In this document: one piece after another, positions 5,782-28,347 of the stretch | How the letters are laid out: every line of letters starts with the position of its first letter | Position numbering within the stretch: position 1 is the stretch's first letter | From: an uncultured Lachnospiraceae bacterium | GTDB lineage: Bacteria > Bacillota > Clostridia > Lachnospirales > Lachnospiraceae | Reading direction: 5' to 3' | Length of the DNA stretch: 34,677 bases | Assembly: GCA_946620235.1 (NCBI GenBank) | Contig: CAMONC010000008.1 | Coordinates: 1-34,677, forward strand | Notes under the pieces: model-generated | Databases searched by the model: none | Seen by the model: the letters and a program-made list of their open reading frames with translations, nothing else | Told to the model about the DNA's origin: nothing | Translations under genes and position numbers: made by a program

Positions 5782-6715
5782 AGAGTGCGAAGGTGCAAAA
5801 AAAATAGCGGTCAGCGGACATATCCGTCCCGACGGCGACTGCGTGGGCTCCTGTATGGCTATAGCTCTTTATCTGCGCAAACGTATGCCGGAGGCCGAAG
5901 TAGATGTGTATCTGGATGAGGTTTCGGATATTTTTAACTGCATTCCCGGAGTCGACGGTATTCTGCATGTGGCAAAAAAAGACATAACATACGATATTTT
6001 TATTTGTGCCGATTGTGAACCCGCCAGAATGAGCTTCGGGCACGAATTGTACAAGTCTGCGACCAAGACCATAAACATTGATCATCATATCACCAATGTT
6101 CCCGGCGGGGGAGATGTGAACTACATATATCCCGAATCGGGATCGGCTGCGGAACTGGTCTATGAGGTACTCGAACACGATCATCTGGATCATGATATAG
6201 CTCTGCCCATATATATAGGAATCATTCATGATACGGGGGTATTACAGTACTCAAACGTCAGGCCACAGACACTTCTGACAGTTGCCGATCTGATGAAGTA
6301 TGACCTGAATTTCCCGGAGATAATACGGAAAACCTTCTATGAGAAAACATATATCCAGAGCCAGATTCAGGGACGCGCGCTGCTTGAGAGCATGATCTTC
6401 ATGGATGGCAGGTGTGTAGTCAGCGTAGTTGACAGGAAGACGATGGACTTCTACGGAGCTGACAGCAGAGATCTGGAGGGAATAGTTAATGTCATGAGGA
6501 ATATACGCGGCATCGACTGTGCGATATTCATGTATGAGCTGGGAGTTCAGGAGTATAAGGTCAGTCTGAGAACTTCGGAAGCAGTAGATGCGGCAAAAGT
6601 TACGACCGTATTCGGCGGTGGCGGGCATGACCGTGCTGCCGGGGTGACAATGCGCGGCACCTACCATGACGTGATCAATAATCTCAGTAAAGAGATAGCC
6701 AAGCAATTAAGCTGA
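5768..6715 (+). CDS. nrnA: DHH/DHHA1 phosphoesterase, NrnA-type oligoribonuclease/pAp phosphatase
   Basis: NrnA-family enzymes degrade very short RNA oligonucleotides and often dephosphorylate 3'-phosphoadenosine 5'-phosphate, using Mn2+. From the ATG at 5768 the product is 315 residues and opens with the normal family start. Metal-binding motifs are visible: GHIRPDGDCVGS (residues 17-27), DHH at 105-107 and the DHHA1 substrate-binding signature GGGGHDRAAG at 283-292. An upstream ATG at 5747 would add seven residues; I prefer 5768 because of the family N-terminus. It overlaps rbfA by 14 bases. Family membership is certain, the exact substrate is inferred. Confidence 0.9.
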   Translation: MDLYKECEGAKKIAVSGHIRPDGDCVGSCMAIALYLRKRMPEAEVDVYLDEVSDIFNCIPGVDGILHVAKKDITYDIFICADCEPARMSFGHELYKSATKTINIDHHITNVPGGGDVNYIYPESGSAAELVYEVLEHDHLDHDIALPIYIGIIHDTGVLQYSNVRPQTLLTVADLMKYDLNFPEIIRKTFYEKTYIQSQIQGRALLESMIFMDGRCVVSVVDRKTMDFYGADSRDLEGIVNVMRNIRGIDCAIFMYELGVQEYKVSLRTSEAVDAAKVTTVFGGGGHDRAAGVTMRGTYHDVINNLSKEIAKQLS

Positions 6716-6746
6716 TCGACGCACTTTACCACACATTTCTGCAGAT

Positions 6747-7667
6747 ATGCTTAACGGTATCATAAATATATACAAGGAGCCCGGATATACGTCACATGAT
6801 GTTGTGGCGAAGCTTCGCGGGATCACACATCAGAAGAAGATCGGTCATACAGGCACGCTGGATCCGGATGCGGAGGGCGTGCTGTGTGTATGCATGGGGG
6901 CAGCAACTCGGGTATGTGACATGCTTACGGATGCCACCAAGCAATATGAGGCCATATGCCTGCTGGGAGTCGCGACCGACACTCAGGACACATCAGGACA
7001 GGTACTTACAGAGAAACGCGTGAATGTGAGCGTGGATGATGTGCGCACCTGTATCTCGGGTTTTATCGGTGAGATCGATCAGATACCGCCGATGTTCTCG
7101 GCGCTCAAGCGGGACGGTAAGAAACTCTATGAGCTGGCTCGTGCCGGTATAGAGGTTGAGAGGGAACCCAGACGGATCACCGTGTATGATATCGAAGTTA
7201 TAAGCGTTGATCTGCCCGAGATCACCATGAGGGTGACATGTTCGAAGGGAACGTATATCAGGACTCTGTGCAACGATATCGGTGAAAAACTCGGATGCGG
7301 AGCCTGCATGAAACACCTGACGAGGACACGTGTCGGAGATTTTGATTTAAGCACATCGCATAAGCTTGCAGAGATAGAAGAACTGGCACATGAAGAACGT
7401 ATATCAGATGTGCTGATCCCTGTCGCCGATGTTTTCGCCGATCTGCCCGTTGCAACGGTTACGGAGGCAGGTGCAAAGAGAGCGGTTAACGGCAATCTGC
7501 TGGATATTAAAGATGTCGTGACCGACGCCGATAGTTTACATAACATCAAACAGACTGACGCCGAACGGATCAGGGTTGTCGGTCCGGATGGATTTTTTTA
7601 CGGAATATATGCATATGATCTCGCCGACAGGAAATATCACCCGGTGAAGATGTTTCTGTGCCCATGA
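6747..7667 (+). CDS. truB: tRNA pseudouridine(55) synthase TruB
   Basis: TruB converts U55 in the T-loop of tRNAs to pseudouridine. The 306-residue product begins MLNGIINIYKEPGYTSHDV and contains the catalytic motif GHTGTLDPDAEGVL with the nucleophile at Asp39. Further conserved blocks are QIPPMFSALKRDGKKLYELAR and CSKGTYIRTLCNDIG, and a divergent PUA-like C-terminus. The start lacks a clear Shine-Dalgarno sequence. One copy of the 13-mer AGTTTACATAACA (7533-7545) lies in the C-terminal region, where it encodes SLHN. The stop overlaps the start of ribF. Confidence 0.95.
   Translation: MLNGIINIYKEPGYTSHDVVAKLRGITHQKKIGHTGTLDPDAEGVLCVCMGAATRVCDMLTDATKQYEAICLLGVATDTQDTSGQVLTEKRVNVSVDDVRTCISGFIGEIDQIPPMFSALKRDGKKLYELARAGIEVEREPRRITVYDIEVISVDLPEITMRVTCSKGTYIRTLCNDIGEKLGCGACMKHLTRTRVGDFDLSTSHKLAEIEELAHEERISDVLIPVADVFADLPVATVTEAGAKRAVNGNLLDIKDVVTDADSLHNIKQTDAERIRVVGPDGFFYGIYAYDLADRKYHPVKMFLCP
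7533..7545 (+). repeat. Interspersed motif, form A (AGTTTACATAACA), in truB
   Basis: Exact 13-mer, + orientation, read in truB as AGT TTA CAT AAC (SLHN). It sits in the variable C-terminal region. The TTA leucine codon looks uncommon among these genes. One of four identical 13-mers in the window. Confidence 0.85.
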
Positions 7668-8593
7668 AGATAATATCAGGTATCACTGAGTTTCAATTAG
7701 ATAGTCCTTCAGCCGTAGCAATAGGCAAGTTTGACGGTGTTCACCTGGGACACAGGCTTCTGCTTGATCGTATAATTGCGGCTTCCGACCGAAATCCGGA
7801 CGTTAAAAGCGTGGTTTTTACTTTTAATCCGTCCCCGGAGAGCCTTTTTGCCGGACAGGCACTTAAGGAACTTACGACCATATCTGAGAAAAGGCTGATC
7901 TTTGACCGCATGGGAGTGGATGTTCTCATTGAGTTTCCTATGAATCATCAGACAGCTGCCATCCGAGCGCATGATTTTACGCAGCGGTATCTGGTGGAGC
8001 GCATGTGTGCGTCCCTTATCGTGGCAGGCAGTGACGTGACTTTCGGATATATGGGAGAGGGTAATGCCGATACTCTGATCAGATTGGGCAGAGACTACGG
8101 TTATGAGTGTGAGATCATAGATAAGGTCACCTATAAGGGGGTTCCCATCAGTTCCACACGCATCAGGAATGCGATCGAGGCCGGAGAAATGGAGCAGGTG
8201 ACGGCGATGCTCGGTTTCCCGTACAGGATATCGGGATTCGTCACACACGGCAGGCATTTAGGCCATGAGATAGGCATGCCTACCGCAAATGTGATCCTGG
8301 CTCCCGATAAAATGACCGGTCCCAACGGAGTCTATTATTCCCGTGTATATACGGCTGACGGTGTGTTCCACGGCATTACAAATGTCGGAGTCAAGCCCAC
8401 TGTCATGAATGACGAGCTTCTGTGCTGTGAGAGTTTTCTGTATGATTTTGACAGAGATATATACGGAGAGTACATTGAAGTGGAGCTGCTTAAGTTCGTC
8501 AGACCCGAGCGGCGATTTGACTCCCTGGATGAGCTGAAGGAACAGATGCAGAAGGATATTGAGGGTGGTCGTGCTTTCCACCGTATGGCATAA
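7664..8593 (+). CDS. ribF: Bifunctional riboflavin kinase/FAD synthetase
   Basis: RibF phosphorylates riboflavin to FMN and adenylates FMN to FAD. The N-terminal FAD synthetase domain shows GKFDGVHLGH near residue 20 and SSTRIRNAIEAG near 165. The C-terminal riboflavin kinase domain shows GRHLGHEIGMPTANV, then GVKPTV and ESFLYDFDRDIYGEYIEVEL. The ORF track begins at a GTG at 7658, two codons upstream; I use the ATG at 7664, which overlaps the truB stop (ATGA). The product is about 309 residues, the family's normal size. It closes the translation/cofactor cluster. Confidence 0.95.
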   Translation: MKIISGITEFQLDSPSAVAIGKFDGVHLGHRLLLDRIIAASDRNPDVKSVVFTFNPSPESLFAGQALKELTTISEKRLIFDRMGVDVLIEFPMNHQTAAIRAHDFTQRYLVERMCASLIVAGSDVTFGYMGEGNADTLIRLGRDYGYECEIIDKVTYKGVPISSTRIRNAIEAGEMEQVTAMLGFPYRISGFVTHGRHLGHEIGMPTANVILAPDKMTGPNGVYYSRVYTADGVFHGITNVGVKPTVMNDELLCCESFLYDFDRDIYGEYIEVELLKFVRPERRFDSLDELKEQMQKDIEGGRAFHRMA

Positions 8594-24989: not shown

Positions 24990-25024
24990 TTATCGGTTCC
25001 GGATTTCATACATACTGAATACAG

Positions 25025-25056
25025 GGGATGTGCTATAATTAGCACATCCCTTTTTT
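25025..25056 (+). terminator. Strong intrinsic terminator after the CAP lipoprotein gene
   Basis: GGGATGTGCTA and TAGCACATCCC form a perfect 11-bp stem with a 4-base loop, followed directly by six T residues. It ends the SEC-C/CAP transcription unit. Confidence 0.93.
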
Positions 25057-25063
25057 ATCTGCA

Positions 25064-25164
25064 AATGACCCACGGGGACGGAGTCACTGGTTCATTTTAT
25101 AAATGCCCCACGGGGACGGACAGTCACTACATGAACCCGGCGGTTCATGGGTTCATTTTATGGG
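25064..25164. repeat. REP-like GGGGACGG repeat pair with embedded hairpin
   Basis: Two copies of CCACGGGGACGGA...GTCACT...GGTTCATTTTAT lie back to back (about 25064-25100 and 25101-25160). The second carries an additional perfect hairpin, CATGAACC (25130-25137) and GGTTCATG (25142-25149) around CGGC, which the first lacks. GGGGACGG-cored intergenic repeats are common in Clostridia and resemble REP elements mobilised by REP-associated tyrosine transposases. They fill the gap between the CAP terminator and the sortase gene. Confidence 0.75.
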
Positions 25165-25191
25165 AAAATAAATACCGGGAGCGGACTTGAT

Positions 25192-26085
25192 ATGGCTAAA
25201 GAGAAGAATACCGACAAAAAAGAAGGATCTGAGAAAAAAGAAAAAGTATATAAGGTGCTGGACATTCTTATACCGGTTGTGTGTATAAGCGTGTTTGTTT
25301 TCAGTGGTTTTAATCTGTTTAGGATATACAGATCGTACGCCGAAGCCGATGCCATATACAACGGTCTGGCACTGATGGCCAATCATACTGCCGGGACGCA
25401 GGAGGAGCAGGTGGCCGTAGCGATGGAGGAAGCGGGTTTTCCGTATCTGAATGTGGATCATGAGGGCTTGCTCAAGATCAATCCGGATTATAAGGGATGG
25501 CTGTATTTTCCGTTACTTGATATCAGCTATCCGGTCGTGTACGGTGATGAAGCTCAGTCCTATCTGAATAAGACTTTTGACGGAACACCCTCCAAAAGCG
25601 GTGCCATATATATAGATGCCTGGTCTAATCCGGATCTGAAGGATATGACTACACTGATCTACGGTCATAATATGCGTAACGGTTCCATGTTCGGAAGCCT
25701 GAAGCGCATTCGTAATGAAGAGGGACTTGTTGATCAGGATCCGTATTTCTACTATTACACCCCCACGATAGCCTATAAGTGCCATATATTCGTATACTAT
25801 CTGGAGAATGCGAACGGCATGACCTACAAGTATCCGACTGATAACAGAACCTATGATCAGTATATGGACTATATCCTGGAGAAGAATGAATACGCAGACG
25901 GACCGAATAATGTTGATATAGCTCACCGACCGAGAATACTTTCGCTTTCCACATGCTCCGGCTTCCATTCGGGCAAGAGAACGGTCATTCATGCGGCTAT
26001 AGAGGATTCGTATAAGATCGGGGATAACCTGATCGTTGATGACTCCTTTGGTGATGCTGTCGAAACGGATATAACCCAAAGGTAG
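25192..26085 (+). CDS. Class B sortase
   Basis: Sortases are membrane-anchored transpeptidases that attach surface proteins to the wall or build pili. The 297-residue protein has a basic N-terminus, one membrane helix (about 28-45, ILIPVVCISVFVFSGFNLF) and an extracellular catalytic domain. Catalytic residues are visible: His159 in YGHNM, Cys255 in LSTCSG and Arg263 in GKRTVIHA. The MFGSL sequence and the extended C-terminal helix region fit class B. The ATG at 25192 follows GGGAG; the ORF track start at 25147 lies within the REP-like repeat. No obvious substrate gene is adjacent, but the surface protein at 32340 is a candidate. Confidence 0.92.
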   Translation: MAKEKNTDKKEGSEKKEKVYKVLDILIPVVCISVFVFSGFNLFRIYRSYAEADAIYNGLALMANHTAGTQEEQVAVAMEEAGFPYLNVDHEGLLKINPDYKGWLYFPLLDISYPVVYGDEAQSYLNKTFDGTPSKSGAIYIDAWSNPDLKDMTTLIYGHNMRNGSMFGSLKRIRNEEGLVDQDPYFYYYTPTIAYKCHIFVYYLENANGMTYKYPTDNRTYDQYMDYILEKNEYADGPNNVDIAHRPRILSLSTCSGFHSGKRTVIHAAIEDSYKIGDNLIVDDSFGDAVETDITQR

Positions 26086-26133: not shown

Positions 26134-28347
26134 ATGGATCGGAAGTTTTCCCTTAACAGAACTCAACTCAAACTCATAGCCATTGTTTCAATGGTGATAG
26201 ATCATGTCGCCTGGGGGTTTGTGGATTTCTACTCACCTTTGGGGCAGTTCATGCATGTGCTCGGTCGCTTCACGATCCCGATCATGTGCTTCTTTATAGC
26301 GGAAGGCTTCCGCAGGACTCATGATCTGAGGCAGTACATCTACCGTATGGCCTCTGCGGCCGTATTCACGATCATTCCCTTTTATCTTTTCTTCGGACAC
26401 GAGTACGGATACAGGCAGAACATAATATTTGATTATCTGCTTGGCCTTCTGATGCTGACCGTTCTGGAGAAGACGAAGTGGAGCAGAGCGGCTAAGATAC
26501 TTGCCGTTGCCGTACTTTTCGGCGTATCGGTCACTGTGGGCGGCTGGATCATCACACCTTCAATGTTTATCCTGGTGTTCTATTACGGACGCGATTGGAA
26601 GCAGAAGGTTAAGCTGTTCGTGACAGTCAATGTGGTGACTGTATTAAGCATAGAGACTGCCATATTCCTGAATTCCAGATTTCACTTCATGGAATATGAC
26701 TGGACATGGTGGTCGATGTTGTATCTGCTTGGTTTTATGCTTGCACTTCCGGTTCTTTCTCTGTATAACGGCGAGAAAGGTTCGGACAGACCGGGCAGTA
26801 AGTTCTTCTATATATTCTATCCGGCTCACTTCATTATACTGTGGGCGGTACAGAAACTGACAGTAGGGTATGACAGTTTATACGGACTGTATCTGGGCAT
26901 ACATATCCTGGTGATCGTGGTCATTGTGATCATGCTTGAGGGTGTGCTGAGATCGCAGGCCAGCCGCGGACAGAATGCCGTAGCTATTTTTCTGGTGAGC
27001 GGGGCAGTGTATGTTTGCGGGTTTGTTTTAGAGATACTGGCCTCCTCGGCTGACGGGTATTATCTTGCATGTATCGTTCAGTATTTCGGTGAGTATATCA
27101 TGCTCATATCCATACTGTTGTTCATTTCCGAAGCCTGCAGGGTGTCTACTCCCAGATTTGTATATCTGCTGCATATCGTAGTGTCTCTCGGTTTGATGTA
27201 TGCACTTGTCACCACGCGTGAGACCGGCTTCTTCTATTCATATATCGGGGTTAACAACGAAAATGTGATAGGGCGTCCCGAACTTGTTCATGCCACCGGT
27301 TTCTGGCTTTCACTGACGTTCATGGCGGTCATATGCCTGGAGATAATCATCTTTGCCTGCTTTGTATTCCTCAGAGGCTCGAAGATAGAAAAGAGACGTA
27401 TGATACTCATACTCTGTGCGATGGTGTCGTGCTGGATGCCCATATTGATCACGGCTACGGGAATAACCGGAGGGTTCGAGATCCCGGCGATAGGTATGCT
27501 GGCTGCAGGCGGATTCATGTATGCCAGCCTGTTCAGATACGGAGCTCTGGACTCGGTTGCTCTGGCGAGTGAGAATGCCCTGGAAAAGGCGCATGAAGGT
27601 ATCCTTGTGTTGGATGATATGTATAGAGTCAGCTTTCATAACCGCATAGTGGATGATATCATAGGCGAATTGAGCCACAGCGCGGATCTCAGAGATCATG
27701 AAGTGGTCGGCAGGATCCTGAACGGAGAGATCAATCATATCGATGTGGCGGACAGAGTTTACGAGGTCACTCTGGAAGAACTGAAGAGCGGAAAACTCAC
27801 TCAGGGAACCATGATCTGGTTTCTCGATGTTACGGAACATATACAGAACCTTCGGAATATGCAGGAACTGGCTCATCATGATCCGCTGACGGGATTATAT
27901 AACAGGGGATATTTTAAAAAGATCGTCGATGATGAGGTGGCAGAAGGTCGTCGGGGCTGCTTTCTTATGATGGATATGGATAATTTCAAGATGGTGAACG
28001 ATCGATATGGCCATCAAAGAGGGGACTCAGTACTCATAAATCTGGCCGCCATACTGAATGAGTATCCCGATGATGAACTGTATGCATGCCGTGTGGGCGG
28101 TGATGAGTTCTGTGCGTATATACGCAATAATACCGATAAAGAGTACATAACAACTGTTATAGACAATATCATGAACAGGTTTAATCGCACTTTCCGCTCG
28201 GAAGATGATATCAGATGCACCATCTCGATAGGCGCTGTCATCAATGATGATGCAGATTCTCTTATGGATTGTTCGACCATGTATTCCCATGCAGATAAGA
28301 AGCTGTATGAAGCCAAGGAGTCAGGCAAGAATACTTACAGGATGTAA
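26134..28347 (+). CDS. TraX-7TM-PAS-GGDEF fusion: membrane diguanylate cyclase with acyltransferase-like N-terminus
   Basis: A 737-residue multidomain membrane protein. Residues 1-240 match the TraX/acyltransferase-3-like family (LNRTQLKLIAIVSMVIDHVAWGF, MHVLGRFTIPIMCFFIAEGF, YPAHFIILW). A second group of seven or so helices (about 255-470) resembles the histidine-kinase N-terminal 7TM sensor. A PAS-like segment (about 475-570, GILVLDDMYRVSFHN) leads to a GGDEF domain (about 575-737) with an intact active site GGDEF at 655-659. A clear RxxD inhibitory site is not seen. It would make c-di-GMP in response to an unknown signal. The start has no strong ribosome binding site; GGTTTACATAATTC lies just upstream. 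Confidence 0.88.
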   Translation: MDRKFSLNRTQLKLIAIVSMVIDHVAWGFVDFYSPLGQFMHVLGRFTIPIMCFFIAEGFRRTHDLRQYIYRMASAAVFTIIPFYLFFGHEYGYRQNIIFDYLLGLLMLTVLEKTKWSRAAKILAVAVLFGVSVTVGGWIITPSMFILVFYYGRDWKQKVKLFVTVNVVTVLSIETAIFLNSRFHFMEYDWTWWSMLYLLGFMLALPVLSLYNGEKGSDRPGSKFFYIFYPAHFIILWAVQKLTVGYDSLYGLYLGIHILVIVVIVIMLEGVLRSQASRGQNAVAIFLVSGAVYVCGFVLEILASSADGYYLACIVQYFGEYIMLISILLFISEACRVSTPRFVYLLHIVVSLGLMYALVTTRETGFFYSYIGVNNENVIGRPELVHATGFWLSLTFMAVICLEIIIFACFVFLRGSKIEKRRMILILCAMVSCWMPILITATGITGGFEIPAIGMLAAGGFMYASLFRYGALDSVALASENALEKAHEGILVLDDMYRVSFHNRIVDDIIGELSHSADLRDHEVVGRILNGEINHIDVADRVYEVTLEELKSGKLTQGTMIWFLDVTEHIQNLRNMQELAHHDPLTGLYNRGYFKKIVDDEVAEGRRGCFLMMDMDNFKMVNDRYGHQRGDSVLINLAAILNEYPDDELYACRVGGDEFCAYIRNNTDKEYITTVIDNIMNRFNRTFRSEDDIRCTISIGAVINDDADSLMDCSTMYSHADKKLYEAKESGKNTYRM

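Follow-up and report, generated by a model that had tools for sequence, protein, structure and literature searches.

TraX of the F plasmid, a membrane enzyme and probably an acyl-transferase, is required for the N-acetylation of F-pilin, and no account of a role for the TraX family (PF05857) outside conjugation was found in the literature. The locus described here raises the question of what such a protein does when it forms the front end of a membrane-bound diguanylate cyclase. It lies in a 34,677 nucleotide stretch from an uncultured Lachnospiraceae bacterium (contig CAMONC010000008.1), the whole of which is called the window below, and its features are as follows:

25023-25052, strong hairpin of terminator type with 13 pairs and a T tail, separating a CAP-domain protein gene from the sortase gene
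25147-26085, + strand, sortase gene (PF04203), 48 nt upstream of the fusion gene
26134-28347, + strand, TraX-7TM-PAS-GGDEF fusion gene, one uninterrupted open reading frame of 737 aa with an ATG start and with orthologues
26158-26850, + strand, TraX domain (residues 9-239; Pfam PF05857, E=1e-31), nine predicted membrane helices, N-in/C-out
26170-26205, + strand, motif K13-x10-H24 (KLIAIVSMVIDH) in the first TraX helix (TMH1), presumptive counterpart of the AT3 R/K-x10-H motif by hhalign register
26908-27555, + strand, HisKA_7TM region (residues 259-474; PF16927, E=1.2e-15), seven helices, N-out/C-in
27571-27843, + strand, PAS-like domain (residues ~480-570), from its predicted strand/helix order and a Foldseek match to 5xge
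27871-28332, + strand, GGDEF diguanylate cyclase domain (residues 580-733; PF00990, E=6.8e-36)
28096-28110, + strand, GGDEF active-site motif (residues 655-659), invariant in 59 fusions

A preliminary description had proposed a TraX-like N-terminus joined to a 7TM-PAS-GGDEF protein with an intact GGDEF motif, and had suggested that the parts be searched separately; our analysis bears this out. The TraX match of the window protein (111 bits, cut-off 25) spans profile positions 2-216 of 217 and is highly significant when this part is searched alone against Pfam (E=4.9e-33), and the fusion's parts score separately too. HisKA_7TM (58.5 bits against a cut-off of 28.6) and GGDEF (123.9 bits) likewise exceed their cut-offs by a wide margin. 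The PAS assignment comes from predicted structure and from some of the orthologues (PAS_8 matches in 4 of 44), as no Pfam PAS model matches the window protein; a sequence search of the PDB with this protein returned GGDEF matches only, and NCBIfam GGDEF-type models only. All three Pfam domains are present in every one of the 44 aligned orthologues, which excludes an assembly artefact, so a TraX domain built into the front of a diguanylate cyclase is confirmed as a real fusion.

A scan of genome contigs found 80 loci, nearly all in Lachnospiraceae, that carry this TraX part, 58 of them as fusions in addition to that of the window; the comparisons below are of 59 fusions. Of the 58, L036 is disrupted close to the C-terminus, and a contig end truncates L059 and L069. 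The survey of Lachnospiraceae that had been proposed found the architecture to be recurrent, in 20 of 397 sampled genomes (about 5%; 18 canonical, and two degenerate, G029 and G288). A class-wide sample gave 3 of 391 genomes, all three of them Lachnospiraceae, and no fusion was found outside this family in the genomes sampled from the class; in other families TraX and 7TM-PAS-GGDEF occur, but on different proteins, and at none of ten such loci in other Clostridia (seven 7TM-PAS-GGDEF, three TraX) are the two halves adjacent. The carriers form part of a branch of Lachnospiraceae from gut and rumen that includes the cultured Butyrivibrio proteoclasticus P6B7 and B. hungatei DSM 14810, and five of six congeners have the fusion (G001 does not). 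The congener orthologue L036 (G003:C31:131234-133435) has in-frame stops near its C-terminus, inside the GGDEF domain, whereas some other congeners have an intact copy.

The TraX family is present in 277 of the 299 Lachnospiraceae genomes sampled for it, and the earlier statement that TraX relatives normally stand alone agrees with the ordinary matches listed, since nearly all of these fall in reading frames that are about 215-370 aa long. The window's own genome encodes a second, stand-alone TraX of 330 aa (contig C59, L119:3042-4034, minus strand), which is very divergent from the fused TraX and adjoins an S-adenosylhomocysteine-hydrolase-like gene. At seven other loci, from several Lachnospiraceae (L136, L137, L139, L142, L147, L148 and L163), an ordinary TraX gene begins within a few bases after a gene of about 560-660 aa that, by eye, looks to be of the glycogen-debranching type, and is followed by a gene of about 180 aa (MKAWQHLRTINHHKWLVMKHCFKVG...); this arrangement is a possible clue to the function of TraX in Bacillota.

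In a tree of the TraX parts the ordinary stand-alone proteins are all on one side of a branch with 100/100 support, and one stand-alone group (99/96) is nested among the fusions. A tree that unites the fusions without this nested group is rejected by the AU test (p=0.03, a modest value, from a tree that left out the degenerate proteins and with the root assumed to lie among the ordinary TraX proteins). The simplest history suggested by the tree would be a single fusion event, after which the 7TM-PAS-GGDEF half was lost once. A phage origin was rejected, as no phage record has one place that covers 80% of the fusion protein, and plasmids carry only distant TraX copies, mostly in Enterococcus.

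The window protein has 16 predicted membrane helices, with both termini inside. In the AlphaFold models (mean pLDDT 86 for the whole protein; pLDDT 93.7 and pTM 0.91 for TraX) TraX has nine membrane helices, the second of them kinked, and the next module has seven, spanning residues 249-469; only about five residues lie between helix 224-243, with which TraX ends, and helix 249-272, with which the 7TM unit starts. The density of lysine plus arginine per residue is 0.19 in the loops expected inside versus 0.05 in those expected outside (mean of the 59 proteins), and therefore TraX should be N-in/C-out, the 7TM unit N-out/C-in, and the GGDEF domain cytosolic. TraX is without the tenth helix of the TmAT superfamily (PMC12423673), so that the fused TraX ends on the very side from which the 7TM unit has to start. 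HisKA_7TM is above cut-off six times in the window's own genome, in frames of different lengths, and so is a reused sensor module. Foldseek matches listed for the whole model are PAS/GGDEF proteins, the best being PAS-GGDEF crystal structures, among them the PAS-GGDEF-EAL protein 5xge. With the TraX model alone no PDB structure matched at E<=0.001 (best E=0.5); because no similar solved structure was returned, the idea that this fold binds acyl-CoA draws on motifs and profile similarity.

Conservation within the fusion is highest in TraX. Among the 59 proteins 49 of its 242 positions are >=97% identical, against 6 of 216 in 7TM, 4 of 101 in the PAS-like part and 19 of 162 in GGDEF, and its mean pairwise identity is 58% versus 36-41% for the other parts. 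H24 is present in all 59 fusions and in all stand-alone TraX proteins including that of the F plasmid, R71 in 58 of the 59 and K13 in 51; H24, G44-R45, R71, Y229 and H232 are common to the fusions (all or nearly all), the stand-alone proteins and F-plasmid TraX, and the window protein has each of the residues that stand-alone TraX and F-plasmid TraX both conserve, K13, D23, H24, G44, R45, R71, Y229 and H232. The K13-x10-H24 spacing agrees with R/K-x10-H, a motif known from AT3 acyltransferases (PMC7448272), and the profiles of TraX and of the AT3 proteins of relatives are in register over TMH1-3 (hhalign P=5e-5, 65 columns), an alignment that pairs K13 and H24 with the AT3 arginine and histidine. 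We regard these conserved residues as the presumptive acyl-transfer set.

At the other end of the protein D614, N622, D631, R653 and D657, the metal/GTP-binding and GGDEF residues, are invariant in the 59 fusions, and a canonical RxxD I-site is present in none of them. Both observations speak against control in the reverse direction, in which c-di-GMP or GTP bound to GGDEF would regulate acyl transfer by TraX; GGDEF domains can in principle bind c-di-GMP and a fusion is compatible with either direction of signal flow, but we consider this very improbable.

The reading that we favor, tentatively and with slightly less than an even chance of being right, is that a TraX/TmAT acyl-transfer unit, acting through acyl-CoA occupancy or acyl transfer, provides the input to a membrane-bound diguanylate cyclase. 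TraX fits as an input in that it is N-terminal, the usual place of a sensor domain in diguanylate cyclases, and that the topology is compatible. Cytosolic acyl-CoA would enter the TraX bundle past K13 and R71 at the inner face, and H24 would handle the acyl group towards the outer face, with or without its transfer to an outside acceptor. Occupancy or turnover would then alter the bundle, which is tightly joined to the 7TM relay, and the 7TM-PAS unit would shift GGDEF dimerisation and thereby c-di-GMP synthesis, as known PAS-GGDEF proteins suggest. The domain order, the fit of the topology, the acyl-transfer-type residues, the cyclase motifs and the repeated linkage of the TraX clade to signalling genes (below) are computational results. 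A more specific version, an acyl-CoA "transceptor" in which TraX carries acyl-CoA from the cytosol across the membrane (in these fermenters it might be acetyl- or butyryl-CoA), its turnover or occupancy directly governs c-di-GMP synthesis, and the degenerate copies are receptors without catalysis, seems to us unlikely. The caveats to TraX as an input include the following: a plain enzyme would show conserved catalytic residues too, and Q replaces K13 in 8 of the 59 fusions.

The main rival is a bifunctional protein in which TraX acylates an exported molecule (cell-wall glycan, lipid or protein) in its own right, the cyclase only makes c-di-GMP where and when TraX works, and the 7TM unit is the sensor. 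The intact acyl-transfer-type residues of the 59 fusions speak for it, and separate 7TM-PAS-GGDEF proteins of about 510-540 aa exist in other Clostridia, so TraX is not needed for such a cyclase; against it, the neighborhoods of the fused genes showed no conserved genes for a substrate or a surface polymer. We judge it doubtful, though a serious possibility, and two groups of relatives bear on it.

The first group is the degenerate fusions. Genome G288 has two tandem TraX-7TM-GGDEF proteins without PAS (L115:3904-5805 and 5830-7764), in which K13 is E/V, H24 is kept/N, R45 is K/G, R71 is C/Q and H232 is Q/P, respectively (for the second the Pfam TraX match is not significant and the assignment is from the alignment), and G029 has one TraX-7TM-GGDEF protein with a PAS-like stretch and the changes K13Q, H24L, R45F, R71K and H232V. 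All three have thus lost most of the catalytic set and retained 7TM and GGDEF, as is expected if the TraX module can signal without catalysis, and the retention of a degenerate TraX in fused form in two lineages argues against the bifunctional enzyme. These proteins are on very long branches of the tree and could have a different role. They also suggest a pseudo-enzyme receptor, in which the fused TraX fold binds a small ligand and is purely a sensor that carries out no acyl transfer, and the "ammonium transporter" chain of PDB 8qj3 is an example of a membrane module of other role preceding GGDEF. The presumptive catalytic set is, however, invariant or nearly so in the window's clade, which is stricter than ligand binding needs, and we think a pure receptor quite improbable.

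The second group is the nested sub-clade that has retained TraX and lost the 7TM-PAS-GGDEF half. The persistence of TraX after the cyclase half was lost is a point in favor of the bifunctional enzyme, but the detached TraX is still found beside signalling genes: in six of six loci it adjoins one on the same strand, overlapping or at most 40 nt away. The neighbor is a hybrid histidine kinase gene in L053, L056, L057 and L072 and a membrane EAL (c-di-GMP phosphodiesterase) gene in L094 and L097 (by Pfam in L094, by tblastn in both). By contrast, ordinary stand-alone TraX has a same-strand signalling neighbor at 0 of about 51-56 loci. The six loci are one clade with about two independent contexts, so their linkage is suggestive rather than statistical proof. 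About a dozen fused genes in one sub-clade are directly followed by a hybrid kinase gene of about 1050 aa, whose kinase domains were verified in L079. At L079:3242-5455 the fusion itself is in two frames (294 and 427 aa) with the break inside 7TM, followed by the 1050 aa kinase gene. Together the degenerate fusions and the detached TraX genes favor a role for TraX as the module that feeds a signal into a membrane signalling protein. The window's own genome encodes PilZ proteins, which are likely c-di-GMP effectors; no c-di-GMP-I riboswitch was found in the window, and the lack of a match in the genome as a whole is uninformative since the control also matched nowhere.

The preliminary description had linked acylation of a surface molecule, or sensing of an acyl donor, to c-di-GMP, and had taken the upstream sortase to indicate a surface-assembly context. 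The first idea fits the recurrent fusion and its conserved catalytic-type residues; the sortase is indeed present, but the context drawn from it is not supported. Upstream of the fusion gene the window has the CAP-domain protein and the sortase; on the downstream side come a solute-binding protein of the amino-acid type and then transporter genes. No terminator was detected between the sortase and fusion genes, and since the hairpin precedes the sortase the two may be co-transcribed in the window. Such a same-strand pair, 48 nt apart and kept in four near relatives (L034, L035, L036 and L038), could be taken to mean that the TraX-cyclase and the sortase act on one surface protein. In the neighborhoods of the other ~54 fused genes, including that of the congener L098, no sortase was found, so it gives no general clue; sortase linkage as a general context is rejected, and we give joint surface assembly next to no credence.

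The TraX-GGDEF architecture is apparently undescribed: the preliminary description had raised the possibility that it was already common and described, and it is not rare, at the frequency given above, but a literature search found no description (most subscription journals were outside its coverage, and a description elsewhere is possible). Modular membrane-sensor diguanylate cyclases are already well known, and what is new is the TraX input module. If the favored reading is true an acyl-transfer unit joins the list of c-di-GMP signalling inputs, and either the supply of acyl-CoA or an acylation reaction may directly set a lifestyle signal of the cell; if the transceptor version is true, a surface/motility decision takes its cue from central carbon flux. 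The fused cyclase would report, from within the protein itself, on the binding or activity of TraX, and the cultured Butyrivibrio carriers make testing practical.

The fusion can be compared with four known systems. F-plasmid TraX is of the same Pfam family and has in common with it the K-x10-H motif, the G-R pair, the TMH3 arginine, the TMH9 tyrosine and the terminal histidine; unlike the fusion, it is a stand-alone protein of 248 aa that has no signalling domains and has pilin as its known substrate (acetylation of pilin is an activity known from F-like TraX only), and nothing in our analysis points to pilin as a substrate of the fusion. The TmAT/AT3 proteins (OafB, OatA, HGSNAT, VanT) are similar in the R/K-x10-H motif of TMH1, the TMH3 arginine (R71) and the TMH1-3 profile, and TraX has been placed as a borderline, nine-helix TmAT member on structural alignment (PMC12423673). 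Fusions are known among them, AT3-SGNH and the AT3-racemase VanT (PMC12423673, PMC7448272), with hydrolase, racemase and other domains as partners; GGDEF is not mentioned in these two papers. The stand-alone 7TM-PAS-GGDEF proteins of Clostridia are the same module as the C-terminal two thirds of the fusion, are without TraX, and have no TraX gene beside them in the loci examined. Finally, the ammonium transporter with GGDEF (PDB 8qj3) likewise has a membrane protein of another biochemical role before its GGDEF domain, and the fusion differs from it in having a TraX unit and a separate 7TM relay.
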